The notes beneath the pieces were generated by a model that searched no databases, was not told the DNA's origin, and saw nothing but the letters and a program-made list of their open reading frames with translations. A stretch of DNA of 64,000 nucleotides. Origin: Streptomyces xanthii. Its GTDB lineage: Bacteria > Actinomycetota > Actinomycetes > Streptomycetales > Streptomycetaceae. The position numbers and the translations under genes were made by a program. Below, in pieces: positions 1 through 26,504 of this stretch; within the stretch, counting starts at the first letter, position 1, and each line of letters begins with the position of its first letter. The stretch lies in NCBI RefSeq assembly GCF_014621695.1, contig NZ_CP061281.1:3968001-4032000 (forward strand). The letters run 5' to 3'.

Positions 1-347
1 AGCTCGTCGCGGCTGGTGCCGAGGGTCTCGGCGGCGCTGTAGAGGTACAGGCCGTGGCCCGCCTCGTCCTGGACCTTGGCCATGAGGATGGCCTTGCGGC
101 GCAGGGAGGGGGCGCGGGTGATCCAGTTCGCCTCCGGCTGCATGCCGATGATCTCGGAGTGCGCGTGCTGGGCGATCTGGCGCACCAGCGTCGCGCGGTA
201 GGCGTCGGGCATCCAGTCGCGGGGCTCGATGCGCTCGTCGGCCGCCACCGCCGCGTCGAAGACGGCCTGGAAGCCGGCCTCGCCGAGGTCGGCGGCCTGG
301 TCCGGCCGCGTCCCGGCTGCCTGATGTTGCGGGGCTGCTGTCGCCAT
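1..347 (-). CDS. paaA: PaaA, phenylacetyl-CoA epoxidase subunit A (N-terminal part, cut by window edge)
   Basis: The first 115 residues are visible; the gene continues beyond base 1. The family is the di-iron catalytic subunit of the cytosolic PaaABCDE multicomponent oxygenase, which epoxidises the ring of phenylacetyl-CoA, the first ring-attack step of the aerobic hybrid phenylacetate pathway. The readable text has PaaA hallmarks: [30 protein letters not shown] (metal-site region), and [20 protein letters not shown] with a Glu/His pair typical of the ferritin-like di-iron fold. The ATG at 347 is preceded on the minus strand by GAGGGG with about 8 nt spacing. A putative PaaR operator lies 56-69 nt upstream (403-416). 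paaBCDE would be expected downstream, outside the window. Identity is secure; operon content is inferred. Confidence 0.93.
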
Positions 348-402: not shown

Positions 403-416
403 ACCGATCGTTCGGT
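403..416. promoter_or_regulatory. Putative PaaR operator upstream of paaA
   Basis: On the minus strand the site reads ACCGAACGATCGGT, an imperfect palindrome. It is identical to the site at 5414-5427 and differs at one base from 8279-8292. The identity with the 5414 copy extends to a 20-bp block. Actinobacterial PaaR (TetR family) operators are known to be ACCG...CGGT-type dyads. The paaR gene lies in this window. Binding is inferred. Confidence 0.7.
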
Positions 417-474
417 TCGTCGAGTTCAATGGTGGGACCCGGCGCCGTAGGGTGTCAACCCTGAACAGCCCGCC

Positions 475-517
475 TGTGGACAAGTCCGGTCTGCACCGTC
501 CCTTCACCTGTGGAAAA
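475..517. promoter_or_regulatory. Two CTGTGGA-type motifs (DnaA-box-like) between paaA and the DUF5819 gene
   Basis: TGTGGACAA at 475-483 is the reverse complement of TTGTCCACA, the preferred Streptomyces DnaA box. TGTGGAAAA at 509-517 is a near match in the same orientation. The same motif, preceded by CT, recurs in the other two promoter regions that hold a PaaR-like palindrome (5452-5460 and 8223-8244). It may be a DnaA box, or a site for a regulator shared by these promoters. Confidence 0.35.
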
Positions 518-631
518 CCGCGGTCGACTGTGTTTGGCGCTCGCTCCCCAGTACGGTTCCGATGCGCCGCGGGGACACGGCGGGCCGGGGGAACGGCCAG
601 GGGAACAGGGAATCGGGATCGGGGAGCACCG

Positions 632-1396
632 ATGGACACGGAAGCAACGGCGGCGGACGAGGGCGTCCGGCCCGATCCGGAGCCTGAGCCGCGGCCGAAC
701 CCGCCCGGCCGTGCCGGCATCGCGGGCCTCGCCCCCGGCTACCAGCTGACGGCCGCGCTGGCCCTGGCGGCGATCGCGCTCGTCACCGGCCTGCACGTCC
801 TCATGGTGTTCCTGCACGTCGCGCCGTCGAACACGCTGAGCAAGCAGTACGGCCGCGACGTCGACGACTGGGTCTATCCCGAGTTCGAGCAGAACTGGAA
901 GCTGTTCGCCCCGAACCCGCTCCAGCAGAACGTCGCGGTGCAGGCCCGCGGCGAGGTGCGCACCCGCGACGGGGACACGCGGCAGACCCGCTGGTACGAC
1001 CTGTCCGCCGCGGACGGCGCCGCCATCGACGGCAACCTGCTGCCCAGCCACACCCAGCAGAACGAACTGCGCCGCGCCTGGGACGTCTACGGGTCGACGC
1101 ACGACGCGCAGAACCGTCCCACCGGACTGCGCGGCACCCTGTCCGAGCGCTATCTGCGCCGCATCCTCGTGCTGCGCCTGGACCGGCTCGGCGTGACGGA
1201 GAAGGGCGAGACCCTCGAACGCGTCCAGGTGCGTTCGCGGTCCGTCACCATCGAGCCGCCGAAGTGGAGCACTGAGAAGGTGAACCGGAAGCCGTTCTAC
1301 CGAGAGATCCCCTGGTGGTCGGTGACCGCGTACGACGCTCCGCTCGACACCGGCGCCCGGGTGCGCGTGCAGGGACCGGCCGGTGAGGCCCGATGA
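632..1396 (+). CDS. DUF5819 family membrane-anchored protein
   Basis: 254 residues of unknown function. Visible: an acidic, Pro-rich N-terminus (about 1-40), one membrane helix at about 45-67 (LTAALALAAIALVTGLHVLM), then an extracytoplasmic-type domain with the signature EFEQNWKLFAPNPLQQN and a Trp-rich C-terminal part (KPFYREIPWWSVTAYD). This resembles DUF5819 proteins of actinomycetes. The ATG at 632 was chosen because it follows GGGGAGC and begins the conserved text; the upstream in-frame extension back to 365 runs through the promoter region. The stop overlaps the start of the next gene by 4 nt (ATGA), so the two are almost certainly co-translated. Inference: an accessory subunit or substrate-presenting partner of the HTTM protein. 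Confidence 0.8.
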   Translation: MDTEATAADEGVRPDPEPEPRPNPPGRAGIAGLAPGYQLTAALALAAIALVTGLHVLMVFLHVAPSNTLSKQYGRDVDDWVYPEFEQNWKLFAPNPLQQNVAVQARGEVRTRDGDTRQTRWYDLSAADGAAIDGNLLPSHTQQNELRRAWDVYGSTHDAQNRPTGLRGTLSERYLRRILVLRLDRLGVTEKGETLERVQVRSRSVTIEPPKWSTEKVNRKPFYREIPWWSVTAYDAPLDTGARVRVQGPAGEAR

Positions 1397-2619
1397 CCCG
1401 CCTCGCCCGCTTCGGCGCACAGCTCTACGCCGCCCTCCAGAAGATCACCGCGTCCCCGCTCGCCCCGTACCAGAGCGCCGTGATCCGGATCGGGTTCGCC
1501 TCGACCTGGCTGCTGTTCCTGCTGCGCGAGTACCCGCACCGGCGGGAGCTCTACGGTCCCGACGGGCCGTGGAGCTGGGACCTGGCGCAGCAGCTCATCA
1601 GCGAGAACCACGCGTTCAGCGTGCTGATGTGGTCCGACGGGCGCGCCTGGTTCGAGCTCGTCTACGCGGCGGCCGTCCTGGCCTCGCTCCTGCTGGCCCT
1701 CGGCTGGCGCACCCGCACCATGTCGGTCCTGTTCATGATCGGCGTGCTCTCGCTGCAGAACCGCAGCGTCTTCGTGGGCGACGGCGGGGACAACGTCATC
1801 CACCTCATGTCGATCTACCTCGTCCTCACGCGCTGCGGCCAGGTGTGGTCGCTGGACGCGCGGCGGGCGGCACGCGCGCGGAGCGGCCTGCCCCGGCCGG
1901 ACCGCGCCGGGCCCGTCCTGTGGTGGGTGGCCGGCCTGGCGCTCGCGGCGATCACGTTCACCGGGGACGTCCGCACCGGCTGGCTGCTCGTCTTCTGGTC
2001 GCTGTGGGCCGTCCACGGCGTGTGGTGGTTCCTGAACCTGCGCGCCCCGGACGGCGACCCGCGCCTGCTGTGCGACGTCGTCGCCAACCTGGCGCACAAC
2101 GCCGCCCTGCTGGTGATCATGATCGAGGCGTGCCTGATCTACGCCACCGCGGGCTGGTACAAGATCCAGGGCAGCCGCTGGCAGGACGGCAGCGCCGTCT
2201 ACTACCCGCTGCACCTGGACTACTTCTCACCCTGGCCCGCCCTGGGCGACCTGCTGACCTCGTACGGCCCGATGGTGCTGCTCGTGACGTACGGGACGGT
2301 CGCCGTGCAGGTCGCCTTCCCGTTCACCGTGTTCAACCGGCGGGTCAAGAACGTCCTGCTCGTGCTCATGATCACCGAGCACCTGGCGATCGCCGTCGTG
2401 CTCGGGCTGCCGTTCTTCTCGCTCGCGATGATCGCCGCCGACGCGGTCTTCCTGCCGACACCCTTCCTGAAGTGGCTGGGCGGGCGGGTGGCACGCGCGC
2501 GTGAGCGCGTTTTCCCCGGCACGCGCGCGGAGGGCGGGCCCGAGGTGCCCGGGCCGCGTCCGGCGGACGGGGGGCAGGGGGCCGCGGACGTGTCCGGGGT
2601 GCCGGTCACCCGCACGTAG
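1393..2619 (+). CDS. HTTM domain integral membrane protein (vitamin K-dependent gamma-carboxylase-like)
   Basis: 408 residues, multi-spanning. The N-terminal text RIGFASTWLLFLLREYPHRR and the later GWYKIQGSRWQDGSAVYYPL match the HTTM family, which includes bacterial relatives of vertebrate gamma-glutamyl carboxylase. Hydrophobic helices occur at roughly residues 20-40, 85-110, 175-215, 230-260, 300-330 and 335-360. The C-terminus is a short charged tail. Bacterial HTTM proteins have mostly uncharacterised reactions, so I do not assign a substrate. It is translationally coupled (ATGA) to the DUF5819 gene upstream, an arrangement that suggests a two-component membrane complex. Confidence 0.8.
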   Translation: MTRLARFGAQLYAALQKITASPLAPYQSAVIRIGFASTWLLFLLREYPHRRELYGPDGPWSWDLAQQLISENHAFSVLMWSDGRAWFELVYAAAVLASLLLALGWRTRTMSVLFMIGVLSLQNRSVFVGDGGDNVIHLMSIYLVLTRCGQVWSLDARRAARARSGLPRPDRAGPVLWWVAGLALAAITFTGDVRTGWLLVFWSLWAVHGVWWFLNLRAPDGDPRLLCDVVANLAHNAALLVIMIEACLIYATAGWYKIQGSRWQDGSAVYYPLHLDYFSPWPALGDLLTSYGPMVLLVTYGTVAVQVAFPFTVFNRRVKNVLLVLMITEHLAIAVVLGLPFFSLAMIAADAVFLPTPFLKWLGGRVARARERVFPGTRAEGGPEVPGPRPADGGQGAADVSGVPVTRT

Positions 2620-2629
2620 GCTTCCCGGC

Positions 2630-3445
2630 ATGAGCGGGGCGAACGGGACACAGGCGGCGCGGGGCGCACACGGCGGGCGGGAACAGGACGCGGTGCGGGT
2701 CTGGCGGCAGCACGCCCAGGAGGCCGTGCTGCTGGACGGCTTCCACGCCCTCAAGCACGCGCTGCGCTTCGGCGCGGACGTGCCCGTGGCGCTCGCCGTC
2801 GACCGGGCCGCCGCGCTCGCCCTCGCCGCCGATCTCGCCCCCGACGTCGCCCCCGGACTGGCCGCGCGTCTGGTCGAGGTGCCGGACGACGTGCTGCGCG
2901 CGCTCGTGCCGCGGCTGCACCCCACCGGGGTCGCCGCGCTCGCGGGCCGCCCCGCGGTGGCGGAGCGGCTCGGCGCCCTGCACCGCACGGACCGTACGAC
3001 CCCGGTCGTCGTCCTCGACCAGCCGCGCAACCTCGGCAACGCGGGCGCCGTCATCCGGCTCGCCGCCGGCTACGGGGCCGCGGGAGTCGTCACGACGGGC
3101 AGCCTCGACCCCTGGCACCCCACGGTCGTGCGGGGCGGGGCCGGGCTGCACTTCGCGACCGCCGTGGCGCGCCTGGACGTCGGAGAGCTGCCCGCGGGGC
3201 CGCTGTACGCGCTCGACCCCGAGGGCGCCGACATCCGCGGCCTGGAGCTGCCCGACGACGCGCTGCTCGCCTTCGGCTCGGAGCGCAGCGGCCTGACGCC
3301 CGAACTGCGCGAGCGCGCCGACCACCTCGTCTCCCTGCCGATGCGGCCCCAGGTCTCCAGCTACAACCTGGCGACCAGCGTCGGCATGACCCTCTTCCAC
3401 TGGAGCACGCACAGCCCGCACGCGCCCCGGGCGGACCGGGGCTAG
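2630..3445 (+). CDS. TrmH/SpoU family RNA 2'-O-methyltransferase
   Basis: 271 residues. The C-terminal half is a SPOUT (knotted) SAM-dependent methyltransferase: motif 1 QPRNLGNAGAVIRLA (about 131-145, with the conserved Asn and Arg), motif 2 LAFGSERSGL (about 213-222) and motif 3 LPMRPQVSSYNLATSVGM (about 236-253). The N-terminal 120 residues look like a SpoU substrate-binding domain. Such enzymes methylate the 2'-OH of tRNA or rRNA nucleotides in the cytoplasm; the target cannot be told from sequence. The ATG at 2630 begins 10 nt after the HTTM stop. The terminal TAG (3443-3445) lies inside the CTAG flank of the MITE-like element, so the last residues may have been set by that insertion. 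Confidence 0.85.
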   Translation: MSGANGTQAARGAHGGREQDAVRVWRQHAQEAVLLDGFHALKHALRFGADVPVALAVDRAAALALAADLAPDVAPGLAARLVEVPDDVLRALVPRLHPTGVAALAGRPAVAERLGALHRTDRTTPVVVLDQPRNLGNAGAVIRLAAGYGAAGVVTTGSLDPWHPTVVRGGAGLHFATAVARLDVGELPAGPLYALDPEGADIRGLELPDDALLAFGSERSGLTPELRERADHLVSLPMRPQVSSYNLATSVGMTLFHWSTHSPHAPRADRG

Positions 3446-3622
3446 GTCCTGTCTGGAGTTCCCCGTCTGCGCCCCGACGCCCGGCACGCACCCTCGCCGC
3501 ACGGTGTCCCAGGACAGGTGGCTCCGCCACATGTCCTGGGACGCCGCACACCGAGGGCACGCACCGACCGCCGCTGCGCCCGCGCTCCGCGCGGACGACG
3601 GGGAACTCCAGACAGGACCTAG
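3442..3622. mobile_element. MITE-like palindromic element with CTAG flanks
   Basis: A perfect 22-bp terminal inverted repeat, starting GGTCCTGTCTGGAGTTCCCC, occurs at 3446-3467 and, inverted, at 3597-3618. Direct CTAG copies (3442-3445 and 3619-3622) flank it like a target-site duplication. The 173-bp interior is non-coding and holds a strong hairpin (3506-3522 pairing with 3526-3542, one mismatch) plus weaker symmetry. The TAG stops of both converging genes lie in the CTAG flanks. CTAG duplications fit IS5-type transposases; the parent element is not in the window. It may also act as a bidirectional terminator. Confidence 0.75.
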
Positions 3623-5334
3623 GAGGCGACGGCCTCCCGGCGGACCTCCACCACGCGGAAGCGGTTCGACACGAAGGCGCCGTCGCACAGGGCCGCGTTC
3701 GCCGCCGGGTTGCCGCCCGAGCCGTGGAAGTCGGAGAACGCCGCCGTCTGGTTCACGTACACCCCGCCCGTCAGGTTGAGCGAGAGCTGGGCGCACTCCT
3801 CCAGGCAGACCTCCTCGACGGCGCCGGCCACCTCCTCGGAGGTCGTGTACGCGCCGACGGTCATCGCGCCCTGGTCGCGGACCGTGCGCCGCAGCAGGTC
3901 GAGGGCGTCGGCCGTGGAGTCGACGGCCACCGCGAAGGAGACCGGGCCGAAGCACTCGCTCATGTAGGCCGCCTCGGTGTCGGCGGTCTCCCAGAACTTG
4001 CGCGCGCCGTCGAGCTTCACCATCGCGGGCGTGCGCACCACGGCGTCCGGGAAGTCCGGGTTGGCGACCTCGCGGGAGGGCAGCGCCACCTCGCCCAGGG
4101 AGGCGGCCGCGTCCAGGCGGGCCTTCACGTCCGGGTTGACCAGGGCGCCCAGCAGCGCGTTCGCCCGCGCGTCGTCTCCGAGGAGGCCGCCGACCGAGCG
4201 CGCGAGGTCGGCCACGACCTCGTCGTACGTCTTCGGGCCCTCGTCGGTGGAGATGCCCTCACGGGGGATCAGCAGGTTCTGCGGGGTGGTGCACATCTGG
4301 CCGCTGTACAGGGAGAGCGAGAACGCGAGGTTCGACAGCATGCCCTTGTAGGAGTCGGTCGAGTCGATGACGACCGTGTTGACCCCCGCCTTCTCCGTGT
4401 AGACCTGCGCCTGGCGGGCGTGGGTCTCCAGCCAGTCGCCGAACTCGGTGGAGCCCGTGTAGTCGATGATCTTGATCTCGGGGCGGACGGCGAGCGTCTT
4501 GGCGATGCCCTCGCCGGGGCGCTCGGCGGCCAGCGCCACCAGGTTCGGGTCGAAGCCGGCCTCGGCGAGGACGTCCCGCGCGACCTGGACGGTCAGCGCG
4601 AGCGGCAGCACCGCGCGCGGGTGCGGCTTGACCAGGACCGCGTTCCCCGTCGCCAGGGAGGCGAACAGGCCCGGGTAGCCGTTCCACGTCGGGAACGTGT
4701 TGCACCCGATCATCAGCGCGATGCCGCGGCCGACCGGGGTGAACGACTTGGTGAGCAGCAGCGGGTCGCGCTTGCCCTGCGGCTTGGACCACTCCGCCGC
4801 GTCCGGCGTGCGGACCTGCTCCGCGTACGCGTAGGCCACCGCCTCCAGGCCGCGGTCCTGCGCGTGCGGGCCGCCCGCCTGGAACGCCATCATGAAGGCC
4901 TGGCCGCTGGTGTGCATGACCGCGTGCCCGAACTCCATGGTGCGGGCGCTGATCCGGGCCAGGATCTCCAGACAGACCGCCGCGCGCAGCTCCGCGCCCG
5001 CCTCGCGCCAGGCCCGCAGACCCGCGCGCATGGCGGGCAGCAGCACGTCGATGTCCGCGTGCGGGTACGTGACGCCCAGCTCTACGCCGTACGGGGAGAC
5101 CTCCCCGCCCACGAAGTCGTCCGTGCCGGGCTGGCCCAGGTCGAGGCGGGTGCCGAGCAGGGCGTCGAAGGCGGCCTTGCCCTCGGCCATGCTCAGGCTC
5201 CCGTTCTCCCCGTACGCCTTCGGGTGCTCCGGGTGCGGGGACCAGTACGCGCGCGTGCTGATGGCTTCCAGCGTCCGGTCGAGCGTCGGCCGGTGCTCGG
5301 CGATCAGGTCGTGCGCGGTGCGTTCGGCGGCCAT
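3619..5334 (-). CDS. paaN: PaaN, phenylacetate-pathway ring-opening aldehyde dehydrogenase
   Basis: 571 residues of the PaaN subfamily, an aldehyde dehydrogenase without the MaoC hydratase domain of enterobacterial PaaZ. The family acts on the ring-cleaved oxepin-CoA aldehyde intermediate of phenylacetate degradation. Visible: cofactor region GCNTFPTWNGYPGLFASLAT, the NADP-fold text DYTGSTEFGDWLE, catalytic Cys348 in SLYSGQMCTTPQN, and the C-terminal GSGGNPAANAALCDGAF. The ATG at 5334 follows GGAGGAG with about 8 nt spacing; the longer open frame upstream crosses the promoter. It is divergent from paaH, with a PaaR-like palindrome 80 nt upstream. The TAG stop comes from the adjacent MITE-like element. 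A separate enoyl-CoA hydratase domain would have to be supplied by another gene. Confidence 0.9.
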   Translation of the reverse strand: MAAERTAHDLIAEHRPTLDRTLEAISTRAYWSPHPEHPKAYGENGSLSMAEGKAAFDALLGTRLDLGQPGTDDFVGGEVSPYGVELGVTYPHADIDVLLPAMRAGLRAWREAGAELRAAVCLEILARISARTMEFGHAVMHTSGQAFMMAFQAGGPHAQDRGLEAVAYAYAEQVRTPDAAEWSKPQGKRDPLLLTKSFTPVGRGIALMIGCNTFPTWNGYPGLFASLATGNAVLVKPHPRAVLPLALTVQVARDVLAEAGFDPNLVALAAERPGEGIAKTLAVRPEIKIIDYTGSTEFGDWLETHARQAQVYTEKAGVNTVVIDSTDSYKGMLSNLAFSLSLYSGQMCTTPQNLLIPREGISTDEGPKTYDEVVADLARSVGGLLGDDARANALLGALVNPDVKARLDAAASLGEVALPSREVANPDFPDAVVRTPAMVKLDGARKFWETADTEAAYMSECFGPVSFAVAVDSTADALDLLRRTVRDQGAMTVGAYTTSEEVAGAVEEVCLEECAQLSLNLTGGVYVNQTAAFSDFHGSGGNPAANAALCDGAFVSNRFRVVEVRREAVAS

Positions 5335-5413
5335 GGGGGACCAACTCCTCCTCGGCGGCGGCTCCTCGTCGAGCCGGCGAGCTGGGCAGGGACGGGCAGA
5401 CAGAGTTAGAGTA

Positions 5414-5427
5414 ACCGAACGATCGGT
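5414..5427. promoter_or_regulatory. Putative PaaR operator between paaN and paaH-paaR
   Basis: ACCGAACGATCGGT, identical to the site before paaA. It sits in the 198-bp divergent promoter region, so one site could control paaN and the paaH-paaR operon, giving autoregulation. A CTGTGGACGA motif lies next to it at 5451-5460. Confidence 0.72.
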
Positions 5428-5532
5428 CGGGACAAGGGGGTGCGGCGAACCTGTGGACGACAGCCCTTCGCCGGCCGGGCCTGACGGCCCCCGGGGCCCA
5501 CGCGCTCGGCTGCATGCGGAAGGATCGCGCGC

Positions 5533-7041
5533 ATGACAGCACATGACCGCCCCGTCGGCGTGGTGGGCACCGGCACGATGGGCCAGGGAATCGCCCAGGT
5601 CGCCCTGGTCGCCGGGCACCCCGTCCGGCTGTACGACGCCGTGCCCGGCCGCGCGCGCACGGCCGCCGAGTCGATCGCCGCACGGCTCGACCGGCTCGTG
5701 GACAAGGGCCGCATGAGCGGCGAGGAGCGCACCGCCGCCGTCGCCCGCCTCACGCCCGCGCAGTCGCTCGACGCGTTCGCGGACACGGCCCTCGTGGTCG
5801 AGGCCGTCCTGGAGGAACTGGACGTCAAGCAGCGGCTGTTCCGCGAGCTCGAGGACGTCGTCGACGACGACTGTCTGCTCGCCACGAACACCTCGTCCCT
5901 GTCCGTCACCGCGATCGCCGGTGCCCTGCGCCTGCCCGGCCGCTTCGTAGGACTGCACTTCTTCAACCCGGCGCCGCTCATGCCGCTCGTCGAGGTCGTC
6001 TCCGGCGCCGCCACCGACGTCACCGCCGCCACGCGCGCGTACGAGACCGCCCGCGCCTGGGGGAAGACCCCGGTGGCCTGCGCCGACACCCCGGGCTTCC
6101 TGGTCAACCGGATCGCGCGGCCCTTCTACGCCGAGGCCTTCGCGGTGCACGAGGAGCAGGGCGCCGACCCCGCCACCATCGACGCCGTGCTGCGCGAGAG
6201 CGGCGGCTTCCGGATGGGCGCCTTCGAGCTGACCGACCTCATCGGCCAGGACGTCAACGAGGCCGTGACCCGCTCCGTGTGGGAGGGCTTCTACCAGGAC
6301 GTGAAGTTCCGGCCCGCCCTGTCCCAGCGCCGCCTCGTGGAGGCCGGCCGGCTCGGCCGCAAGACCGGCCAGGGCTGGTACGCGTACGGGGAGGGCGAGG
6401 AGCGTCCCGAGCCGCACACGGCGGCGCCCGCCGAGCCCCCCGCGCGCGTGAGCGTCGAGGGCGACCTGGACTCGGCCGCCGAGCTGATCCCGATGATGCG
6501 CGAGGCGGGCATCGAGGTCGTGCAGGAGGACGAGGACAAGGGCACCCGCATCGTGCTGCCCAGCGGCGGCCAGCTGGTGCAGGCCGACGGCCAGACCTCC
6601 GTCGAGTTCCGCGACGTCGTCTACTTCGACCTCGCCCTGGACTACCGCTCGGCGACCCGGATCGCGCTCGCCGCCTGCAAGGACGGCAACCCGCGCACCC
6701 TGGACGAGGCGGTCGGCCTCTTCCAGGCGCTCGGCAAGCAGGTCAGCGTCATCGGCGACGTGCCGGGCATGATCGTGGCCCGCACCGTGGCCCGGATCAT
6801 CGACCTCGCGCACGACGCGGTCGCGCGCGGCGTGGCCACCGAGGAGGACGTCGACACCGCGATGCGGCTCGGCGTCAACTACCCGCTGGGGCCCGTCGAA
6901 TGGAGCCGCCGGCTCGGCCGAGGCTGGGCCTGCGGAGTGCTGGAGGAGCTGCACGAGCGCGACCCCTCGGGCCGCTACGCCCCCTCCCTCGCGCTCTTCC
7001 GGCACTCGTACAACCCGAAGAAGTGGGAGGGCTCCGCATGA
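5533..7041 (+). CDS. paaH: PaaH, 3-hydroxyacyl-CoA (3-hydroxyadipyl-CoA) dehydrogenase
   Basis: 502 residues. The N-terminal NAD-binding Rossmann domain carries GTGTMGQG (12-19); later LATNTSSLSVTAIA and FVGLHFFNPAPLMPLVEVV are diagnostic of the 3HCDH family. Two C-terminal 3HCDH domains follow (about 190-285 and 405-495), the second with NYPLGPVEWSRRLG. The length and double C-terminal domain match PaaH, which oxidises 3-hydroxyadipyl-CoA to 3-oxoadipyl-CoA with NAD+. The ATG at 5533 has a GGAAGGA site upstream. Its stop overlaps the paaR start (ATGA), so the regulator is co-translated with the enzyme. Specific substrate is inferred from the paa context. Confidence 0.9.
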   Translation: MTAHDRPVGVVGTGTMGQGIAQVALVAGHPVRLYDAVPGRARTAAESIAARLDRLVDKGRMSGEERTAAVARLTPAQSLDAFADTALVVEAVLEELDVKQRLFRELEDVVDDDCLLATNTSSLSVTAIAGALRLPGRFVGLHFFNPAPLMPLVEVVSGAATDVTAATRAYETARAWGKTPVACADTPGFLVNRIARPFYAEAFAVHEEQGADPATIDAVLRESGGFRMGAFELTDLIGQDVNEAVTRSVWEGFYQDVKFRPALSQRRLVEAGRLGRKTGQGWYAYGEGEERPEPHTAAPAEPPARVSVEGDLDSAAELIPMMREAGIEVVQEDEDKGTRIVLPSGGQLVQADGQTSVEFRDVVYFDLALDYRSATRIALAACKDGNPRTLDEAVGLFQALGKQVSVIGDVPGMIVARTVARIIDLAHDAVARGVATEEDVDTAMRLGVNYPLGPVEWSRRLGRGWACGVLEELHERDPSGRYAPSLALFRHSYNPKKWEGSA

Positions 7042-7649
7042 CCACGCCGCGACGTGCTCCGGGCCCGCGCCGCGACACGTACACCCCCGAGACGCTGCTG
7101 ACGGTCGCCGTGGCGGTCTTCAACGAGCGCGGCTACGACGGCACTTCGATGGAGCACCTCTCCAAGGCCGCGGGCATCTCCAAGTCGTCGATCTACCACC
7201 ACGTGTCGGGCAAGGAGGAGTTGCTGCGCCGCGCGGTCAGCCGCGCGCTCGACGGGCTCTTCGGGATCCTCGACGAGGAACCCGCGCGCGTGGGACGCGC
7301 GGTGGAGCGACTGGAGCACGTCACGCGCCGCATGGTCGAGGTCCTGACCGGCGAACTTCCCTATGTGACGCTCCTGTTGCGCGTGCGCGGGAACACGGAC
7401 ACGGAGCGGTGGGCCATGGCGCGCCGCCGCGAGTTCGACCACCAGGTCGCCGCGCTGCTCAAGGCGGCCGCGGCCGACGGGGACGTGCGGGACGACATAG
7501 AAGTGCGGCTCGCGACCCGCCTCCTGTTCGGAATGATCAACTCCATCGTGGAGTGGTACCGGCCCGACGGCGGCGGCCAGCTCCGCCCCCAGGAAGTCGC
7601 CGACGCGGTCGTGGAGCTGGTCTTCCAGGGCATGCGCAAGCCCGCCTGA
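7038..7649 (+). CDS. paaR: PaaR, TetR-family repressor of the phenylacetate genes
   Basis: 203 residues. The N-terminal TetR helix-turn-helix reads FNERGYDGTSMEHLSKAAGI with recognition helix SKSSIYHHVSGKEELLRRAV (about 30-70); the rest is an all-helical ligand-binding domain. TetR-type PaaR proteins of actinobacteria and Thermus are known to be released from DNA by phenylacetyl-CoA. Its position, overlapping the paaH stop by 4 nt, and the identical palindromes at 403, 5414 and (one change) 8279 make it the obvious reader of those sites. Phenylacetyl-CoA as ligand is by homology only. Confidence 0.85.
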   Translation: MTTPRRAPGPRRDTYTPETLLTVAVAVFNERGYDGTSMEHLSKAAGISKSSIYHHVSGKEELLRRAVSRALDGLFGILDEEPARVGRAVERLEHVTRRMVEVLTGELPYVTLLLRVRGNTDTERWAMARRREFDHQVAALLKAAAADGDVRDDIEVRLATRLLFGMINSIVEWYRPDGGGQLRPQEVADAVVELVFQGMRKPA

Positions 7650-7650
7650 G

Positions 7651-7672
7651 CGCCCCTCGGGGCCCTGGGGCG
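7651..7672. terminator. Short hairpin between convergent paaR and bkdR
   Basis: CGCCCC (7651-7656) pairs with GGGGCG (7667-7672) across 10 nt, in the 27-bp gap between two convergent stop codons. There is no U-tract. A weak bidirectional terminator is likely but not certain. Confidence 0.4.
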
Positions 7673-7676
7673 GGCC

Positions 7677-8177
7677 TCAGGCGTCCGGCCCCAGGTCCTC
7701 CTCCTCGAAGACCAGCAGCGTGCGGCTGCTGAGCACCTCGGGGATCGCCTGCAGCTTGGTGAGGACCAGCTCGCGCAGCGCGCGGTTGTCCTGCGTGTGC
7801 ACCAGGATCAGCACGTCGAAGTCACCGCTGACCAGCGCGATGTGCGAGGCCTCGGGCAGCTGGCGCAGCTGGTCGCGCACCGTGCGCCAGGAGTTCTGGA
7901 CGATCTTCAGGGTGATGTACGCGGAGGCGCCCTGCCCGGCCCGTTCGTGGTTGACGCGGGCGCCGAACCCGCGGATCACGCCGTCGTCGATGAGCCGGTT
8001 GATGCGCGCGTAGGCGTTGGCCCGCGACACATGGACGCGCTCGGCGACGGACCGTATCGACGCGCGGCCGTCCTTCTGGAGCATCTGGAGGATGTCGCGG
8101 TCGATGGGATCGAGCGGGCGGGCCACGGGCTCCGGCGGCGGCCCCCCGGAGCCGTCGGCCATTTGTTCAGATGCCAT
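7677..8177 (-). CDS. bkdR: BkdR-type Lrp/AsnC family regulator of the bkd genes
   Basis: 166 residues. N-terminal HTH: LDPIDRDILQMLQKDGRASI then VHVSRANAYARINRLIDDGV (about residues 20-75). The C-terminal RAM-type alpha/beta domain contains HIALVSGDFDVLILVH, the ligand/oligomerisation fold of Lrp proteins. In S. coelicolor an Lrp-like gene, bkdR, beside the branched-chain oxoacid dehydrogenase genes is known to regulate them and to affect development. The divergent position before the first E1-alpha gene matches that. The start at 8177 is preferred because GGGAGG lies about 9 nt upstream; an in-frame ATG at 8198 has no such site. A 34-bp inverted repeat (8217-8250) in the divergent gap is a candidate binding site. 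Confidence 0.85.
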   Translation of the reverse strand: MASEQMADGSGGPPPEPVARPLDPIDRDILQMLQKDGRASIRSVAERVHVSRANAYARINRLIDDGVIRGFGARVNHERAGQGASAYITLKIVQNSWRTVRDQLRQLPEASHIALVSGDFDVLILVHTQDNRALRELVLTKLQAIPEVLSSRTLLVFEEEDLGPDA

Positions 8178-8216
8178 GTGCCCGCGCCTCCCTACCATGG
8201 ACGTACTGCATTCATC

Positions 8217-8250
8217 TCAGGCTGTGGAGAACCGTTTGTCCACAGCCTGA
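8217..8250. promoter_or_regulatory. Perfect 12-bp inverted repeat in the bkdR/bkdA gap
   Basis: TCAGGCTGTGGA (8217-8228) and its exact complement TCCACAGCCTGA (8239-8250) flank a 10-nt spacer. The dyad lies between the divergent bkdR and E1-alpha genes. It could be the BkdR (Lrp) operator. Its arms also hold two opposed DnaA-box-like nonamers (TGTGGAGAA and TTGTCCACA). It shares the CTGTGGA core with the other PaaR-box promoters. Confidence 0.5.
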
Positions 8251-8278
8251 AGGTGCCTGTAGCCAAAATGTGCCGACG

Positions 8279-8292
8279 ACCGAACAATCGGT
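8279..8292. promoter_or_regulatory. Putative PaaR operator before the first bkd operon
   Basis: ACCGAACAATCGGT differs at one base from the two copies near paaA and paaN/paaH and keeps the ACCGA...TCGGT dyad. It sits 60 nt upstream of the E1-alpha start, a typical repressor position. This is the main evidence that the first 2-oxoacid dehydrogenase operon belongs to the phenylacetate regulon. Confidence 0.62.
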
Positions 8293-8351: not shown

Positions 8352-9503
8352 ATGACGGTCATGGAGCAGCGGAGCACCCGCCGCACAGGCAGGACCGCCC
8401 CGCCGCCCGCCTGGCAGCCCCGCACGGACCCCGCGCCGCTGCTGCCCGACGCGGAGCCGTACCGCGTCCTGGGCACCGACGCCGCCGCGAAGGCGGACCC
8501 CGAGCTGCTGCGCCGGCTGTACGCCGAGGTGGTCCGCGGCCGGAGGTACAACGCGCAGGCGACCGCCCTGACCAAGCAGGGCCGCCTCGCGGTCTACCCC
8601 TCGACCACCGGCCAGGAGGCCGCCGAGGTCGCCGCCGCCCTCGCCCTGGAGGAGCGCGACTGGCTCTTCCCGAGCTACCGCGACACCCTCGCCGCCGTCG
8701 CCCGCGGCCTCGACCCCGTCCAGGCCCTCACCCTGCTGCGCGGCGACTGGCACACCGGCTACGACCCGCACGAGCACCGCGTCGCGCCGCTGTCCACGCC
8801 GCTCGCCACCCAGCTGCCGCACGCCGTCGGCCTCGCCCACGCCGCCCGCCTCAAGGGCGACGACGTCGTGGCGCTCGCCATGGTCGGCGACGGCGGCACC
8901 AGCGAGGGCGACTTCCACGAGGCGCTCAACTTCGCGGCCGTCTGGCAGGCCCCGGTGGTCTTCCTGGTGCAGAACAACGGCTACGCGATCTCCGTGCCGC
9001 TCGCCAAGCAGACCGCTGCGCCGTCCCTGGCCCACAAGGCCGTCGGGTACGGGATGCCGGGCCGGCTGGTCGACGGCAACGACGCGGTGGCCATGCACGA
9101 GGTGCTCACCGAAGCCGTCACCCACGCGCGCGAGGGCGGTGGTCCGACCCTGATCGAGGCCGTCACCTACCGCATGGACGCGCACACGAACGCCGACGAC
9201 GCGACCCGCTACCGCACCGACGACGAGGTCGAGGCGTGGCGCGACCACGACCCGGTCCTCCTCCTGGAGCGCGTCCTGACCGAGCGCGGTCTCATCGACG
9301 AGGCCGGGATGCAGGCCGTGCGCGACGACGCCGAGACGATGGCCGCCGCGCTGCGCGAGCGCATGAACGCGGACCCGGTGCTCGACCCCATGGACCTGTT
9401 CACCCACGTCTACGCCGAGCAGACCTCCCAACTGCGCGAGCAGGCCGAGCAGTTGCGCGCCGAGCTCGAAGCCGAGGCCGAGGCGTCCGAGGGAGGCCGC
9501 TGA
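8352..9503 (+). CDS. bkdA: 2-oxoacid (branched-chain/arylpyruvate) dehydrogenase E1 alpha subunit, copy 1
   Basis: 383 residues. This is the thiamine diphosphate-binding alpha chain of a cytosolic heterotetrameric E1 that decarboxylates 2-oxoacids and passes the acyl group to E2 lipoate. The TPP motif GDGGTSEGDFHEAL (about 178-191) ends in FLVQNN about 28 residues later; YPSTTGQEAAEV and ALEERDWLFPSYRDTL are E1-alpha signatures. The C-terminal 25 residues are Glu/Gln-rich and probably coiled. The ATG at 8352 has GAGGAGG about 6 nt upstream. Its TGA shares one base with the next ATG. Classical assignment is branched-chain oxoacids (Val/Leu/Ile catabolism and fatty-acid primers); the PaaR box and paa neighbours suggest phenylpyruvate as an alternative. 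Confidence 0.88.
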   Translation: MTVMEQRSTRRTGRTAPPPAWQPRTDPAPLLPDAEPYRVLGTDAAAKADPELLRRLYAEVVRGRRYNAQATALTKQGRLAVYPSTTGQEAAEVAAALALEERDWLFPSYRDTLAAVARGLDPVQALTLLRGDWHTGYDPHEHRVAPLSTPLATQLPHAVGLAHAARLKGDDVVALAMVGDGGTSEGDFHEALNFAAVWQAPVVFLVQNNGYAISVPLAKQTAAPSLAHKAVGYGMPGRLVDGNDAVAMHEVLTEAVTHAREGGGPTLIEAVTYRMDAHTNADDATRYRTDDEVEAWRDHDPVLLLERVLTERGLIDEAGMQAVRDDAETMAAALRERMNADPVLDPMDLFTHVYAEQTSQLREQAEQLRAELEAEAEASEGGR

Positions 9504-10525
9504 TGGCGACCGTCGCCCCCGAGCAGGCCGCGAAGCCCGCCACCAAGCCGGCCACCATGGCCCAGGCCCTCGGCCGCGCCCTGCGCGACGCGATGGCCGA
9601 GGACCCGTCCGTGCACGTCCTCGGTGAGGACGTGGGCACCCTGGGCGGCGTCTTCCGCATCACCGACGGACTCGCCAAGGAGTTCGGCGACGACCGCTGC
9701 ACCGACACCCCGCTCGCCGAGGCCGGCATCCTCGGCGCGGCCGTCGGCATGGCGATGTACGGTCTGCGGCCCGTCGTCGAGATGCAGTTCGACGCGTTCG
9801 GCTACCCGGCCTTCGAGCAGCTCGTCTCCCATGTCGCCAAGATGCGCAACCGCACGCGCGGGACGATGCCGCTGCCGATCACGATCCGCATCCCCTACGG
9901 CGGCGGCATCGGCGGCGTCGAGCACCACAGCGACTCCTCCGAGGCGTACTACATGGCGACGCCGGGCCTGACGGTCGTCACGCCCGCCACCGTCGCCGAC
10001 GCGTACGGGCTGCTGCGGCAGTCGATCGCCTCCGACGACCCGGTGGTCTTCCTCGAACCGAAGCGCCTGTACTGGTCCAAGGACACCTGGAACCCGGAGT
10101 CCCCCGCGACCGTTGAACCCATCGGCACGGCAGTGGTCCGCCGCCCCGGGACCAGCGCCACGCTCATCACGTACGGGCCGTCCCTGACGGTCTGTCTGGA
10201 GGCGGCCGAGGCCGCCCGCGCCGAGGGCTGGGACCTCGAAGTGGTCGACCTGCGCTCCCTGGTGCCGTTCGACGACGCGACGGTCGCCGCGTCCGTGCGC
10301 CGCACCGGGCGCGCGGTCGTCGTCCACGAGTCCCACGGCTTCGGCGGACCCGGCGGCGAGATCGCCGCGCGGATCACCGAGCGCTGCTTCCACCACCTGG
10401 AGGCGCCGGTGCTCCGGGTGGCCGGGCTCGACATCCCGTATCCGCCGCCGATGCTGGAGCGGCACCATCTGCCCGGCGTGGACCGGGTGCTGGACGCCGT
10501 CGCACGTCTCCAGTGGGATCAGTGA
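9503..10525 (+). CDS. bkdB: 2-oxoacid dehydrogenase E1 beta subunit, copy 1
   Basis: 340 residues. The E1-beta partner completes the TPP site and the subunit interface. Conserved text: MAEDPSVHVLGEDVGTLGGV, FRITDGLAKEFGDDRCTDTP, PLAEAGILGAAVGMAMYGLR and PYGGGIGGVEHHSDSSEAYY. The C-terminal transketolase-type domain has VVVHESHGFGGPGGEIAARI. A 20-residue Ala/Lys/Pro N-terminal tail precedes the domain and is absent from the second copy. Translation is coupled to E1-alpha by a TGATG junction. Confidence 0.88.
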   Translation: MATVAPEQAAKPATKPATMAQALGRALRDAMAEDPSVHVLGEDVGTLGGVFRITDGLAKEFGDDRCTDTPLAEAGILGAAVGMAMYGLRPVVEMQFDAFGYPAFEQLVSHVAKMRNRTRGTMPLPITIRIPYGGGIGGVEHHSDSSEAYYMATPGLTVVTPATVADAYGLLRQSIASDDPVVFLEPKRLYWSKDTWNPESPATVEPIGTAVVRRPGTSATLITYGPSLTVCLEAAEAARAEGWDLEVVDLRSLVPFDDATVAASVRRTGRAVVVHESHGFGGPGGEIAARITERCFHHLEAPVLRVAGLDIPYPPPMLERHHLPGVDRVLDAVARLQWDQ

Positions 10526-10538
10526 GGGGATCGGTCTG

Positions 10539-11918
10539 ATGGCGCAGGTGCTGGAGTTCAAGCTGCCCGACCTCGGCGAGGGGCTCACCGAGGCGGAGAT
10601 CGTGCGCTGGCTGGTGCAGGTCGGCGACGTCGTCGCCGTCGACCAGCCGGTCGTCGAGGTCGAGACGGCCAAGGCGCTCGTCGACGTGCCGTGCCCCTAC
10701 GGGGGTGTGGTCACCGCCCGCTTCGGCGACGAGGGGAGCGAGCTGCCCGTGGGGGCGCCGCTGCTGACGGTCGCCGTCGGCGCGGACGCGAGCACGGTCG
10801 TGGAGGCGCCGGGCGCCGCCCCGGCCGAGTCCGAGGGCTCGGGCAACGTGCTGGTGGGGTACGGCACGACCGCCGCGCCCGCCCGGCGCCGACGGGTGCG
10901 GCCGAACGCGCCGAGCGCGCAGTCCGCGCCGGCCGCGCCGCCCGCTCCCGCCCCGGCGGCCCCGGTCCCGGCTCCGGTGCCCGTGGCTCCGGCGGCTCCG
11001 GCGCCCGTGAAGCCGGTGCACGCGTCCGGGCCCGTCCCGGTCATCTCGCCGCTCGTGCGCAAGCTCGCCCGCGATCACGGGCTCGACCTGCGGGAGCTGA
11101 CGGGTTCCGGCCCCGAGGGGCTGATCATGCGGGCCGATGTGGAGCGCGCGGTGGCGGGTGCCGCCGCACCCGCCCCGGCGGCACCTGTGGCCCCGGCGCC
11201 CGAGGGCCAGGCGCTCAAGGGTCACCGCACTCCTCTGCGCGGGGTCCGCGGCGCCGTCGCCGACAAGCTCTCCCGCAGCCGGCGCGAGATCCCCGACGCG
11301 ACCTGCTGGGTGGACGCCGACGCGACGGAGCTGATGCGCGCCCGCGCGGCCATGAACGGGGCGACCGGACCCTCCGCGGGCCCGAAGATCTCCGTCCTGG
11401 CGCTGCTCGCCCGCGTCTGCACGGCGGCCCTGGCCCGCTACCCGGAGCTGAACGCGACGGTGGACACGGAGCGGCGCGAGATCGTCCGGTTCGACGAGGT
11501 GCACCTCGGGTTCGCCGCGCAGACCGAGCGCGGGCTCGTCGTCCCCGTCGTCCGGGACGCGCACGCGCGCGACGCCGAGTCGCTGAGCGCCGAGTTCGCG
11601 CGGCTCACGGACGCGGCGCGGACCGGCTCGCTGACGCCCGCGCAGCTGACCGGCGGCACGTTCACGCTCAACAACTACGGGGTGTTCGGGGTCGACGGCT
11701 CGACGCCGATCATCAACCACCCCGAGGCGGCCATGCTCGGCGTGGGCCGGATCGTGCCGAAGCCGTGGGTGCACGACGGGGAGCTGGCGGTCCGTCAGGT
11801 CGTCCAGCTGTCGCTCACCTTCGACCACCGGGTCTGCGACGGCGGCACGGCGGGCGGCTTCCTGCGCTACGTCGCGGACTGCGTGGAACAGCCGGCGGTG
11901 CTGCTGCGCACCCTGTGA
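10539..11918 (+). CDS. bkdC: 2-oxoacid dehydrogenase E2 (dihydrolipoyl acyltransferase), copy 1
   Basis: 459 residues. Domains in order: lipoyl domain (1-80) with lipoylated Lys45 in VEVETAKALVDVP; a long Ala/Pro linker (about 90-165); a peripheral subunit-binding domain (about 168-205, ISPLVRKLARDHGLDLREL); a second Ala/Pro linker; and the CoA-dependent acyltransferase domain (about 225-459) with His430 and Asp434 in TFDHRVCDGG. It is 13 nt downstream of E1-beta. No E3 (dihydrolipoyl dehydrogenase) gene is present, so E3 must be shared from elsewhere. A strong hairpin after the stop ends the operon. Confidence 0.88.
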   Translation: MAQVLEFKLPDLGEGLTEAEIVRWLVQVGDVVAVDQPVVEVETAKALVDVPCPYGGVVTARFGDEGSELPVGAPLLTVAVGADASTVVEAPGAAPAESEGSGNVLVGYGTTAAPARRRRVRPNAPSAQSAPAAPPAPAPAAPVPAPVPVAPAAPAPVKPVHASGPVPVISPLVRKLARDHGLDLRELTGSGPEGLIMRADVERAVAGAAAPAPAAPVAPAPEGQALKGHRTPLRGVRGAVADKLSRSRREIPDATCWVDADATELMRARAAMNGATGPSAGPKISVLALLARVCTAALARYPELNATVDTERREIVRFDEVHLGFAAQTERGLVVPVVRDAHARDAESLSAEFARLTDAARTGSLTPAQLTGGTFTLNNYGVFGVDGSTPIINHPEAAMLGVGRIVPKPWVHDGELAVRQVVQLSLTFDHRVCDGGTAGGFLRYVADCVEQPAVLLRTL

Positions 11919-23925: not shown

Positions 23926-24313
23926 GACGTCAGTCTTACACGCAAGCCCTTCCCGCGCCCCAGGTGACCGGGATAACGTGCCGGTGTTCCGGCCCCCTGC
24001 CAGGCTGTGACCAGTGACCGGCCGCACGGCTGTGACCTGCGACGCTTCGTCTCCGGCGCGATTACTAGGATTTCCGAGCATCGAATTACTTGGAAATCCA
24101 AGCAAAAACGCAGGTCAGATGGGGTTTCGCAGATGTGCGGCGCACTGGGTAACGTGCTGGGTGAAGGGTCTGCCGGGACGCAGGATCTGTTTCGTTCTTT
24201 CTAGTCACGCCTGAACCCGGCGCAGCGCACCCACCCCGTGCGTGGACGGATCAGGCGAGCCGAGCCGACTGGCCATCCGGCAATCCCGGGGCCGGACCGA
24301 CGGAGGAGCACAC
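23926..24313. promoter_or_regulatory. 388-bp divergent region with AT-rich tandem dyads at 24066-24101
   Basis: The region separates the response regulator from the second bkd operon. Its centre, 24061-24105, is conspicuously AT-rich for this genome. It contains TAGGATTTCCGA (24066-24077) and TTGGAAATCCAA (24090-24101), two related near-palindromes spaced 24 bp apart. Each is preceded by ATTACT. GGATTTCC and GGAAATCC also pair as a perfect 8-bp inverted repeat. Tandem dyads like this suit an Lrp-type (BkdR) or LuxR-type regulator. No gene seen. Confidence 0.5.
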
Positions 24314-25507
24314 GTGACCGTAGACAGTGCTGACAGCACTGCCGCTGCGCAAGAGGCACAGCCGCCGCGCAAGCGGGCCGCTGCGAAGAAGTCCGCGAAG
24401 AAGTCCACCGGCACGACCGCGGCGAAGGGCCGTCCCGAGCTGGTCCAGCTCATGACGCCCGAGGGCAAGCGGGTCAAGAACGCGGCGTACGACAAGTACG
24501 TCACCGACATCACCGACGACGCCCTGCGCGACCTGTACCGCGACATGGTGATGGCCCGCCGCTTCGACGCGGAGGCCGTCACGCTGCAGCGCCAGGGCGA
24601 GCTGGGCCTGTGGCCCTCGCTCCTCGGGCAGGAGGCCGCCCAGGTGGGGTCCGGGCGCGCCACCCGCGAGGACGACTACGTCTTCCCGACCTACCGCGAG
24701 CACGGCGTCGCCTGGTGCCGCGGGGTCGACCCGACCAAGCTGCTCGGCATGTTCCGCGGGGTGAACAACGGCGGCTGGGACCCGAACAGCAACAACTTCC
24801 AGCTCTACACGATCGTCATCGGCTCGCAGGCCCTGCACGCCACCGGTTACGCGATGGGCGTGGCCAAGGACGGCGCCGACTCGGCGGTCGTCGCCTACTT
24901 CGGCGACGGCGCCTCCAGCCAGGGCGACGTGGCGGAGGCCTTCACGTTCTCGGCGGTCTACAACGCGCCGGTCGTGTTCTTCTGCCAGAACAACCAGTGG
25001 GCCATCTCCGAGCCCACCGAGAAGCAGACCCGCGTGCCGCTCTACCAGCGCGCGCAGGGCTACGGCTTCCCCGGCGTCCGCGTCGACGGCAACGACGTCC
25101 TCGCGGTGCTCGCCGTGACCCGCTGGGCCCTGGAGCGGGCGCGCAACGGCGAGGGCCCGACCCTCGTCGAGGCCTTCACCTACCGCATGGGCGCCCACAC
25201 CACCTCCGACGACCCGACCAAGTACCGGGCCGACGAGGAGCGCGCCTCGTGGGAGGCGAAGGACCCGATCCTGCGCCTGCGCACGTACCTCGAAGCGCAG
25301 ACCGACACGGACGAGGGCTTCTTCGCGGAACTCGACGCCGAGGCCGAGGCGTTGGGCAAGCGAGTGCGCGATGCGGTGCGGGCCATGCCGGACCCGGACC
25401 ACATGGCGATCTTCGAGAACGTGTACGCGGACGGGCACGCGCTCGTCGACGAGGAGCGCGCGCAGTTCGCCGCCTACCAGGCGTCGTTCGCGGAGGAAGG
25501 TGCCTGA
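24314..25507 (+). CDS. bkdA2: 2-oxoacid dehydrogenase E1 alpha subunit, copy 2
   Basis: 397 residues from GTG 24314, with GGAGGAG 5-6 nt upstream. The first 40 residues are Ala/Lys-rich (PPRKRAAAKKSAKKS), resembling a histone-like basic tail, which the first copy lacks. Then canonical E1-alpha: LWPSLLGQEAAQVGSG, the TPP motif YFGDGASSQGDVAEAF (about 195-210) closing in VFFCQNN, and EAFTYRMGAHTTSDDPTKYR with the conserved phosphorylation-loop-like His. The residues shaping the substrate pocket differ from copy 1 (NNGGWDPNSNN versus DWHTGYDPHEH), hinting at different oxoacid preference. Confidence 0.88.
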   Translation: MTVDSADSTAAAQEAQPPRKRAAAKKSAKKSTGTTAAKGRPELVQLMTPEGKRVKNAAYDKYVTDITDDALRDLYRDMVMARRFDAEAVTLQRQGELGLWPSLLGQEAAQVGSGRATREDDYVFPTYREHGVAWCRGVDPTKLLGMFRGVNNGGWDPNSNNFQLYTIVIGSQALHATGYAMGVAKDGADSAVVAYFGDGASSQGDVAEAFTFSAVYNAPVVFFCQNNQWAISEPTEKQTRVPLYQRAQGYGFPGVRVDGNDVLAVLAVTRWALERARNGEGPTLVEAFTYRMGAHTTSDDPTKYRADEERASWEAKDPILRLRTYLEAQTDTDEGFFAELDAEAEALGKRVRDAVRAMPDPDHMAIFENVYADGHALVDEERAQFAAYQASFAEEGA

Positions 25508-25509
25508 TC

Positions 25510-26490
25510 ATGGCGGTACAGAAGCTTCCGATCGCCAAGGCGATCAACGAGTCGCTGCGCACGGCGCTGGAGAGCGACCCCAAGGTCCTCGTCATGGGCG
25601 AGGACGTCGGCAAGCTCGGCGGTGTCTTCCGGGTCACCGACGGGCTGCAGAAGGACTTCGGTGAGGACCGGGTCATCGACACCCCGCTCGCGGAGTCCGG
25701 CATCGTCGGCACCGCGATCGGTCTCGCGCTGCGCGGCTACCGGCCCGTGGTGGAGATCCAGTTCGACGGCTTCGTCTTCCCCGCGTACGACCAGATCGTC
25801 ACGCAGCTCGCCAAGATGCACGCCCGCGCGCTCGGCAAGGTCAAGGTGCCGGTCGTCGTGCGCATCCCGTACGGCGGCGGCATCGGCGCGGTCGAGCACC
25901 ACAGCGAGTCGCCCGAGGCGCTGTTCGCGCACGTGGCCGGCCTGAAGGTCGTCACGCCGTCGAACTCGTCGGACGCGTACTGGATGCTCCAGCAGGCCAT
26001 CCAGAGCGACGACCCGGTGATCTTCTTCGAGCCCAAGCGCCGCTACTGGGACAAGGGCGAGGTCGACACCGAGGCCGTCCCCGGCGACCTGCACAAGGCC
26101 GTCGTCGCGCGCGAGGGCACGGACGTGACGCTGGTCGCGTACGGGCCGATGGTGAAGGTCTGCCTGGAGGCCGCCGCGGCCGCCCAGGAGGAGGGCAAGT
26201 CGATCGAGGTCCTCGACCTGCGCTCGATCTCGCCGGTCGACTTCGACGCCGTGCAGCGGTCGGCGGAGAAGACGCGGCGGGTCGTCGTCGTGCACGAGGC
26301 CCCCGTCTTCCTCGGCTCCGGCGCGGAGATCGCCGCCCGGATCACCGAGCGCTGCTTCTACCACCTGGAGGCGCCCGTGCTGCGGGTCGGCGGGTACCAC
26401 GCGCCGTATCCGCCGGCGCGCCTGGAGGAGGAGTACCTGCCGGGCCTGGACCGGGTGCTCGACGCCGTCGACCGCTCGCTTGCGTACTGA
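25510..26490 (+). CDS. bkdB2: 2-oxoacid dehydrogenase E1 beta subunit, copy 2
   Basis: 326 residues; start ATG 25510, 2 nt after the E1-alpha stop. Conserved E1-beta text: KVLVMGEDVGKLGGVFRVTD, DTPLAESGIVGTAIGLALRG, RIPYGGGIGAVEHHSESPEA and VVVHEAPVFLGSGAEIAARI. It ends at YLPGLDRVLDAVDRSLAY. Lacks the N-terminal Ala/Lys extension of copy 1. Forms the heterotetrameric E1 with the preceding gene. Confidence 0.88.
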   Translation: MAVQKLPIAKAINESLRTALESDPKVLVMGEDVGKLGGVFRVTDGLQKDFGEDRVIDTPLAESGIVGTAIGLALRGYRPVVEIQFDGFVFPAYDQIVTQLAKMHARALGKVKVPVVVRIPYGGGIGAVEHHSESPEALFAHVAGLKVVTPSNSSDAYWMLQQAIQSDDPVIFFEPKRRYWDKGEVDTEAVPGDLHKAVVAREGTDVTLVAYGPMVKVCLEAAAAAQEEGKSIEVLDLRSISPVDFDAVQRSAEKTRRVVVVHEAPVFLGSGAEIAARITERCFYHLEAPVLRVGGYHAPYPPARLEEEYLPGLDRVLDAVDRSLAY

Positions 26491-26504
26491 GGAGGGCTGA
26501 AGAC

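Follow-up and report, generated by a model that had tools for sequence, protein, structure and literature searches.

A Predicted PaaR Regulon That Includes the bkdR-Linked 2-Oxoacid Dehydrogenase Operon of Streptomyces

We analysed a 64,000-nucleotide (nt) stretch of the Streptomyces xanthii genome (8.35 Mb, Streptomyces type; C1:3968001–4032000), hereafter the window, in which a 2-oxoacid dehydrogenase operon (E1α–E1β–E2) lies beside the regulatory gene bkdR and a group of phenylacetate (paa) genes that includes the gene for the TetR-type repressor PaaR. Three sites, at 403–416, 5414–5427 and 8279–8292, share the core ACCGA-N4-TCGGT and stand before paaA, between paaN and paaH-paaR, and before the bkdR-linked operon. 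That they are PaaR-type operators of a single regulon including this bkd-type operon is well supported by the sequence comparisons given below, which make control of the operon by PaaR very likely. We also consider it probable, with less assurance, that PaaR governs four promoters in all and that the enzyme converts phenylpyruvate to phenylacetyl-coenzyme A (CoA).

An initial annotation of the window had proposed that a bkd-type complex is under phenylacetate control. Uniqueness of the sites, their conservation, an independent recovery of the motif at paaK and published operators support that proposal, and a published co-expression table from one heavily mutated strain agrees with it. We would refine it in two ways: to call the complex just a branched-chain enzyme is probably too simple, and paaK, outside the window, is probably a fourth promoter.

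Three Sites at One Locus

A motif search of the window returned the three sites where the initial annotation had placed them, the first on the minus strand, and the first two are indeed identical over 20 bp (AACCGAACGATCGGTCGGGA). The palindrome is imperfect, with six of seven pairs in the paa copies (ACCGAACGATCGGT) and five of seven in the bkd copy (ACCGAACAATCGGT). Also borne out were the TetR-type gene at 7038–7649 and the distance of about 60 nt between the third copy and the E1α gene (59 nt to the ATG; Table 1).

A genome scan with the 14-bp motif had been suggested as a check. Exact ACCGAACRATCGGT occurs at three places only in the whole genome, all at this locus, against about 0.05 expected from base composition, and a reversed control pattern has no match genome-wide. 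With up to one mismatch the window still holds only these three sites, and none of 100 dinucleotide shuffles contained any match. At up to three mismatches there are 17 matches in the window against a mean of 9.06, so only close matches are informative. The looser pattern ACCGNNCRNNCGGT is common genome-wide (95 forward and 97 reverse matches) and alone proves nothing.

Allowing one mismatch genome-wide adds four further places. One of them, C1:7176714, lies 3.2 Mb from the window and starts 28 nt before a gene that matches the PaaK (phenylacetate-CoA ligase) model with 699 bits (cut-off 646); this recovery is a blind test of the motif. The PaaK search gave matches in 54 of 61 genomes, and in the best 30 loci, which were examined, the motif stands at the paaK start every time, 28 times as ACCGAATGATCGGT and twice as a variant. 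One of the 30 comes from a genome (G001, 79% complete) that has no PaaR match. The paaK site is the only sensible one of the four single-mismatch sites, two others being inside likely coding frames and one having no evident downstream gene. The single-mismatch copy at C1:2631731 (L122 3032–3045) is outside predicted frames and near a UvrD-like helicase gene, with no evident link to phenylacetate.

Agreement with Published PaaR Operators

In Corynebacterium glutamicum the PaaR consensus is ACTNACCGNNCGNNCGGTNAGT. The validated PaaR operators of Burkholderia cenocepacia, ACCGACCGGTCGGTT and ACCAACCGGTCGGTT, have the same core as the sites described here, and PaaR is dissociated by phenylacetyl-CoA (review PMC9493321). 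A putative PaaR site of S. pristinaespiralis is printed as AACGA-N4-TCGGT, one base off the window sites (PMC10933834). Beyond the genus, upstream DNA could be read in 43 loci, and in 11 of these the strict motif stands at paaA or paaR; some copies are CA-centred, for example ACCGAACATTCGGT. Another seven paaA loci of Streptomyces (L211–L217) were picked for their more distant paaA sequence; by inspection, three have the motif close upstream, one of them exactly.

Conservation across Streptomyces

The best 80 of 579 E1α relatives were kept, 79 named Streptomyces and one named only as an actinobacterium. ACCGAACAATCGGT is exact in all 80 loci, where it begins 69 to 100 nt upstream of the E1α start, and the central base is A in every one. 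The paaN/paaH site is exact with a central G in 78 of the 80 (one variant and one contig end account for the rest). The paaA site is likewise exact, with a central G, in all 47 Streptomyces loci whose DNA upstream of paaA could be read; in 33 of the 80, paaA is missing from the examined stretch. Among the loci with the bkd site is one of S. violaceoruber (L099), a near relative of widely used laboratory strains. Each promoter has its own fixed centre across Streptomyces: CG at paaA and at paaN/paaH, CA at bkd and TG at paaK.

Of 150 genomes of the genus, 146 carry one bkd-type site and no more; the control pattern has a single match in all 150 together, and PaaR is found at E 1e-40 in 147 of them. 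Three genomes (G001, G037 and G120) have no bkd-type site, no PaaR match and no close E1α; in a fourth (G010) PaaR is present and the site is unseen, the promoter containing a run of N (assembly gap). A larger, overlapping set of 393 genus genomes has PaaR at E 1e-60 in 389, and in the four without a match (G037, G120, G155 and G266) the best E1α is 41 to 61% identical. The site lies at most 150 nt before E1α in 14 of 14 genomes for which both coordinates were available, and it is intact in a genome (G089) in which 16 kb separate the operon and paaR.

Published Co-expression in S. rimosus

An expression comparison of S. rimosus HP126 with its parent (Table 2 of PMC10612213) lists genes for E1α, E1β and E2 (SRIMR7_19995, 20000 and 20005) at log2 changes of 5.0, 4.6 and 4.7, together with paaE, paaD and paaC (19935, 19940 and 19945) at 4.1, 3.5 and 3.3 and phenylacetate-CoA ligase (35410) at 3.1. 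In HP126 dv3 relative to HP126, the E1α, E1β and E2 genes fall (−2.9, −2.7 and −2.7), as do paaE and paaD (−1.4 and −1.0; paaC, 0) and the ligase (−1.3). The same table gives valine dehydrogenase at −1.7 and branched-chain aminotransferase at +1.0, and in the authors' interpretation the breakdown of branched-chain compounds and of phenylacetate is activated. Locus tags in this genome step by five per gene, which puts E1α 12 genes after paaE, a spacing that fits the window locus if paaB and paaD are single genes; from this tag count we infer that the S. rimosus operon is the window operon. The co-expression is a correlation in one strain with many mutations and rearrangements.

Relatives of the Enzyme and Linkage to paa Genes

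A second contig of the same genome (C2; L117 85–14208) encodes a nonribosomal peptide synthetase, followed by a DpgC-like dioxygenase (491 bits, under the cut-off of 530), E1α, E1β, a thioesterase and an aminotransferase. The order after the synthetase is that of pglABCDE, and these genes are probably a pgl operon in a phenylglycine antibiotic cluster. PglB/C form a pyruvate dehydrogenase-like complex that turns phenylpyruvate into phenylacetyl-CoA (PMC7089894). The PglB/C-like E1 pair is 57% and 76% identical to that of the window operon and 47% and 59% identical to that of the second bkd operon of the window; the two window operons are 40% and 58% identical to each other. In a 57-taxon tree of both subunits the PglB/C-like pair joins a clade of the Streptomyces operon and its relatives from family f16 with support of 0.975. 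Since the nearest functionally described relative that we found makes phenylacetyl-CoA from phenylpyruvate, the complex is probably more than a plain branched-chain enzyme. We lean slightly towards phenylpyruvate as a physiological substrate. A mixed substrate range is likely, and an enzyme confined to aromatic substrates seems unlikely.

Linkage was followed in 41 loci (L118 and L126–L165), which are not a random sample. In three of them (L118, L162 and L163, from G037, G155 and G266) paaG, paaA, paaBC and paaDE come directly after E1α–E1β–E2 of the window type, all in the same orientation. The complex also lies beside paa genes in L140, L149 and L155, from three other families, and in L159 and L160, which are second copies in Streptomyces. 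The genomes of L118, L162 and L163 have no PaaR match, and L118 also carries a telomere-protein (Tpg) gene. A search for palindromes common to promoters within these eight paa-linked loci found none, and no PaaR control is claimed for the enzyme in them or in the 41 loci as a whole. In 45 other-genus paaA loci, excluding the three linked genera, neither E1 type was seen in the examined stretch. Close E1 relatives in L126–L129 (family f16) have no PaaR motif upstream and come from genomes without a paaA match.

Alternative Explanations

Several observations weigh against the account given here. Other DNA upstream of E1α is strongly conserved too, and the 14-mer does not stand alone; conservation drops within about 20 nt past the bkd site. 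Genome G388 has a weaker PaaR match (2e-75) yet no close E1α. Outside the main Streptomyces type, none of 41 loci (0 of 41) has the motif in the 350 nt upstream of E1α, so the link to PaaR seems to be a feature of Streptomyces or part of it, and the enzyme family as a whole is not under PaaR control. Among the E1 loci of other genera only 3 of 34 are linked to paa genes, and 21 f16 genomes carry the window E1 type without a paaA match, from which it follows that a genome can have the complex and lack phenylacetate catabolism. Across the class, the window E1 co-occurs with paaA no more strongly than the second bkd type does. Counted by eye, 24 of 28 E1-bearing genera have a paaA match, while the second bkd type occurs in 83 of 105 genera, among them nearly all of those with paaA; class-wide co-occurrence is therefore uninformative and was dropped as evidence. 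Finally, the NCBIfam model TIGR03181 labels the E1α as of pyruvate dehydrogenase type, and L-valine induces the "BCDH II" of S. albus, which may be the window operon (PMC8176718).

This last point also favours the alternative that survives best, in which PaaR controls the operon yet the product is a branched-chain 2-oxoacid dehydrogenase of the ordinary kind, the regulation being cross-talk of acyl-CoA pools with no phenylalanine step. In the literature the bkdR-linked operon counts as that of a branched-chain complex (PMC8176718), and the f16 genomes keep the E1 type without paaA. However, the window E1 resembles PglB/C more than it does the E1 of the second bkd operon, the complex shares an operon with paa genes in L118, L162 and L163, and in S. 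rimosus the operon moves with the paa genes while valine dehydrogenase falls (PMC10612213). We regard an ordinary branched-chain enzyme as rather unlikely.

It is improbable that the site at 8279–8292 is bound by another regulator, whether BkdR or a TetR protein of the AccR/PccD type, with its paa likeness due to convergence. Although bkdR is divergent from the operon and in Saccharopolyspora the branched-chain complex is reportedly under PccD (PMC8176718), neither an AccR motif (GTTAA-N6-TTAAC) nor a PccD motif (TGACGG-type) is seen at the site, both being quite different from it when compared by eye with those in PMC10933834. BkdR could use the inverted repeat, which is a separate element, and all three exact sites in the genome are at this locus. 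More improbable still is a pyruvate dehydrogenase-like complex: the E1α exceeds the TIGR03181 cut-off and the best solved match of the E1 is the pyruvate dehydrogenase 1W85, but PglB/C, which are pyruvate dehydrogenase-like and yet act on phenylpyruvate, show that the substrate cannot be read off from such a label (PMC7089894), and the paa linkage in other loci also argues against it. Hardly credible is a chance or inherited likeness without function, since the site, despite its position about 0.6 kb from paaR and within upstream DNA that is generally conserved, is one of three where 0.05 were expected, is exact in 80 of 80 loci including the 33 without paaA in the examined stretch, and is intact in G089 at 16 kb from paaR.

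Gene Content of the Window

The features discussed are collected in Table 1.

Table 1. Coordinates of genes and predicted sites in the window
Feature	Position	Strand	Remarks
paaA, 5' part	1..347	-	Continues past window edge; G000:C1:3967334-3968347
PaaR-type operator ACCGAACGATCGGT	403..416	-	Predicted; 55 nt 5' of paaA start
paaN	3619..5334	-	TIGR02288, 961 bits, cut-off 579
PaaR-type operator ACCGAACGATCGGT	5414..5427	+	Predicted; between divergent paaN and paaH-paaR
paaH, 3-hydroxyacyl-CoA dehydrogenase	5533..7041	+	NF006124, 637 bits, cut-off 508
paaR, TetR-type repressor	7038..7649	+	TetR_N, TetR_C_24; ATG overlaps paaH stop
bkdR, Lrp/AsnC-type regulator	7677..8177	-	Domain match; adjoins E1 gene in most related loci
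30-bp inverted repeat AGGCTGTGGA-N10-TCCACAGCCT	8219..8248	.	Between bkdR and E1α; strict core in 60/80 Streptomyces loci
PaaR-type operator ACCGAACAATCGGT, central CA	8279..8292	+	Predicted; ends 59 nt 5' of E1α ATG (8352)
2-oxoacid dehydrogenase E1α	8352..9503	+	E1_dh; TIGR03181, 433 bits over 411
2-oxoacid dehydrogenase E1β	9503..10525	+	Family and domain matches
2-oxoacid dehydrogenase E2	10539..11918	+	Lipoyl, E3-binding and acyltransferase domains

The best solved matches of PaaR are SCO3833 (2IAI, E 3e-92) and then 3VPR, which we take to be the Thermus PaaR. The PaaH equivalog model TIGR02279 gives 585 bits on paaH, under its cut-off of 669, and it is the model of the wider subfamily (NF006124) that is passed. 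Matches to the paaC and paaE models lie to the left of paaA, beyond the window, and three plus-strand open frames lie between paaA and paaN. In the intergenic sequence at about 3446–3621, facing copies of GGTCCTGTCTGGAGTTCCCCGT (by eye) flank further hairpin-like sequence between two genes; this may be a small mobile or terminator-like repeat.

All the domains expected of a branched-chain 2-oxoacid dehydrogenase are present in E1α, E1β and E2. In S. coelicolor bkdA2B2C2 is SCO3831–3829, beside bkdR, SCO3832 (PMC12323332), and judged by its neighbours the operon described here is evidently bkdA2B2C2; by the same reasoning the second bkd operon of the window, at about 24242–27860, would be bkdA1B1C1. 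The inverted repeat between bkdR and E1α may be the BkdR site, an assignment by position only. No like copy lies 5' of E1α in the 41 loci (L118 and L126–L165).

Proposed Mechanism and Implications

In the mechanism that we propose, PaaR, made from paaH-paaR, would bind ACCGA-N4-TCGGT with small variations and repress four promoters: those of paaABCDE, paaN/paaH-paaR, paaK and the bkdR-linked E1α–E1β–E2. We infer that phenylacetyl-CoA would release PaaR in this organism, coming either from phenylacetate through PaaK or from phenylpyruvate through the complex itself. At the bkd promoter the PaaR site would act next to the separate conserved inverted repeat that may serve BkdR, and the operon might thus answer to both an aromatic-CoA signal and an amino-acid signal; the fixed CA centre may set a different affinity there. 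The enzyme would probably oxidise phenylpyruvate, derived from phenylalanine, to phenylacetyl-CoA, which would feed the paa pathway and induce the enzyme's own regulon. It may also accept branched-chain 2-oxoacids.

Going further, we suggest only tentatively, and with slightly more doubt than belief, that the bkdR-linked complex kept by most of the Streptomyces sampled serves phenylalanine catabolism as an aryl-2-oxoacid (phenylpyruvate) dehydrogenase, with PaaR as its repressor and its product phenylacetyl-CoA as the inducer of its own regulon. If true, the presence of two bkd clusters in the genus would have an explanation, and PglB/C would be a relative of the complex taken over for the making of phenylglycine antibiotics.

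If the proposed mechanism is right, an operon annotated as branched-chain would belong at least partly to phenylalanine and phenylacetate catabolism, and the amino-acid regulator BkdR and the aromatic-CoA regulator PaaR would be joined at one promoter. Expression data such as the S. rimosus table (PMC10612213) would read differently, and there would be a way to influence how much phenylacetyl-CoA is available for phenylglycine antibiotics and how much acyl-CoA for polyketides. We found no statement of PaaR control of the bkdR-linked operon in the excerpts of the literature searched, a scope that leaves aside the primary PaaR and BkdR papers and RegPrecise. RegPrecise is said to hold PaaR regulogs (PMC3840689), and an earlier prediction of such control is possible.

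Comparison with Known Systems

The PaaR regulons of S. pristinaespiralis and C. glutamicum likewise have a TetR repressor of paa genes, and the putative site core printed for PaaR differs from the core here by one base. A 2-oxoacid dehydrogenase operon is not mentioned as a target of either in the excerpted reviews, whereas one is a predicted target here. Among E1 pairs, the closest functionally described one that we found is PglB/C of the phenylglycine pathway, in a sister clade; the PglB/C genes lie in an antibiotic cluster with no E2 identified in the stretch examined, whereas the window operon has one. The operon itself is evidently that named bkdA2B2C2 in S. coelicolor, having the same bkdR neighbour and a TetR gene that matches SCO3833. 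The bkdR-linked operon is known as a branched-chain complex under BkdR; the predicted PaaR-type site is what the present analysis adds to that description.

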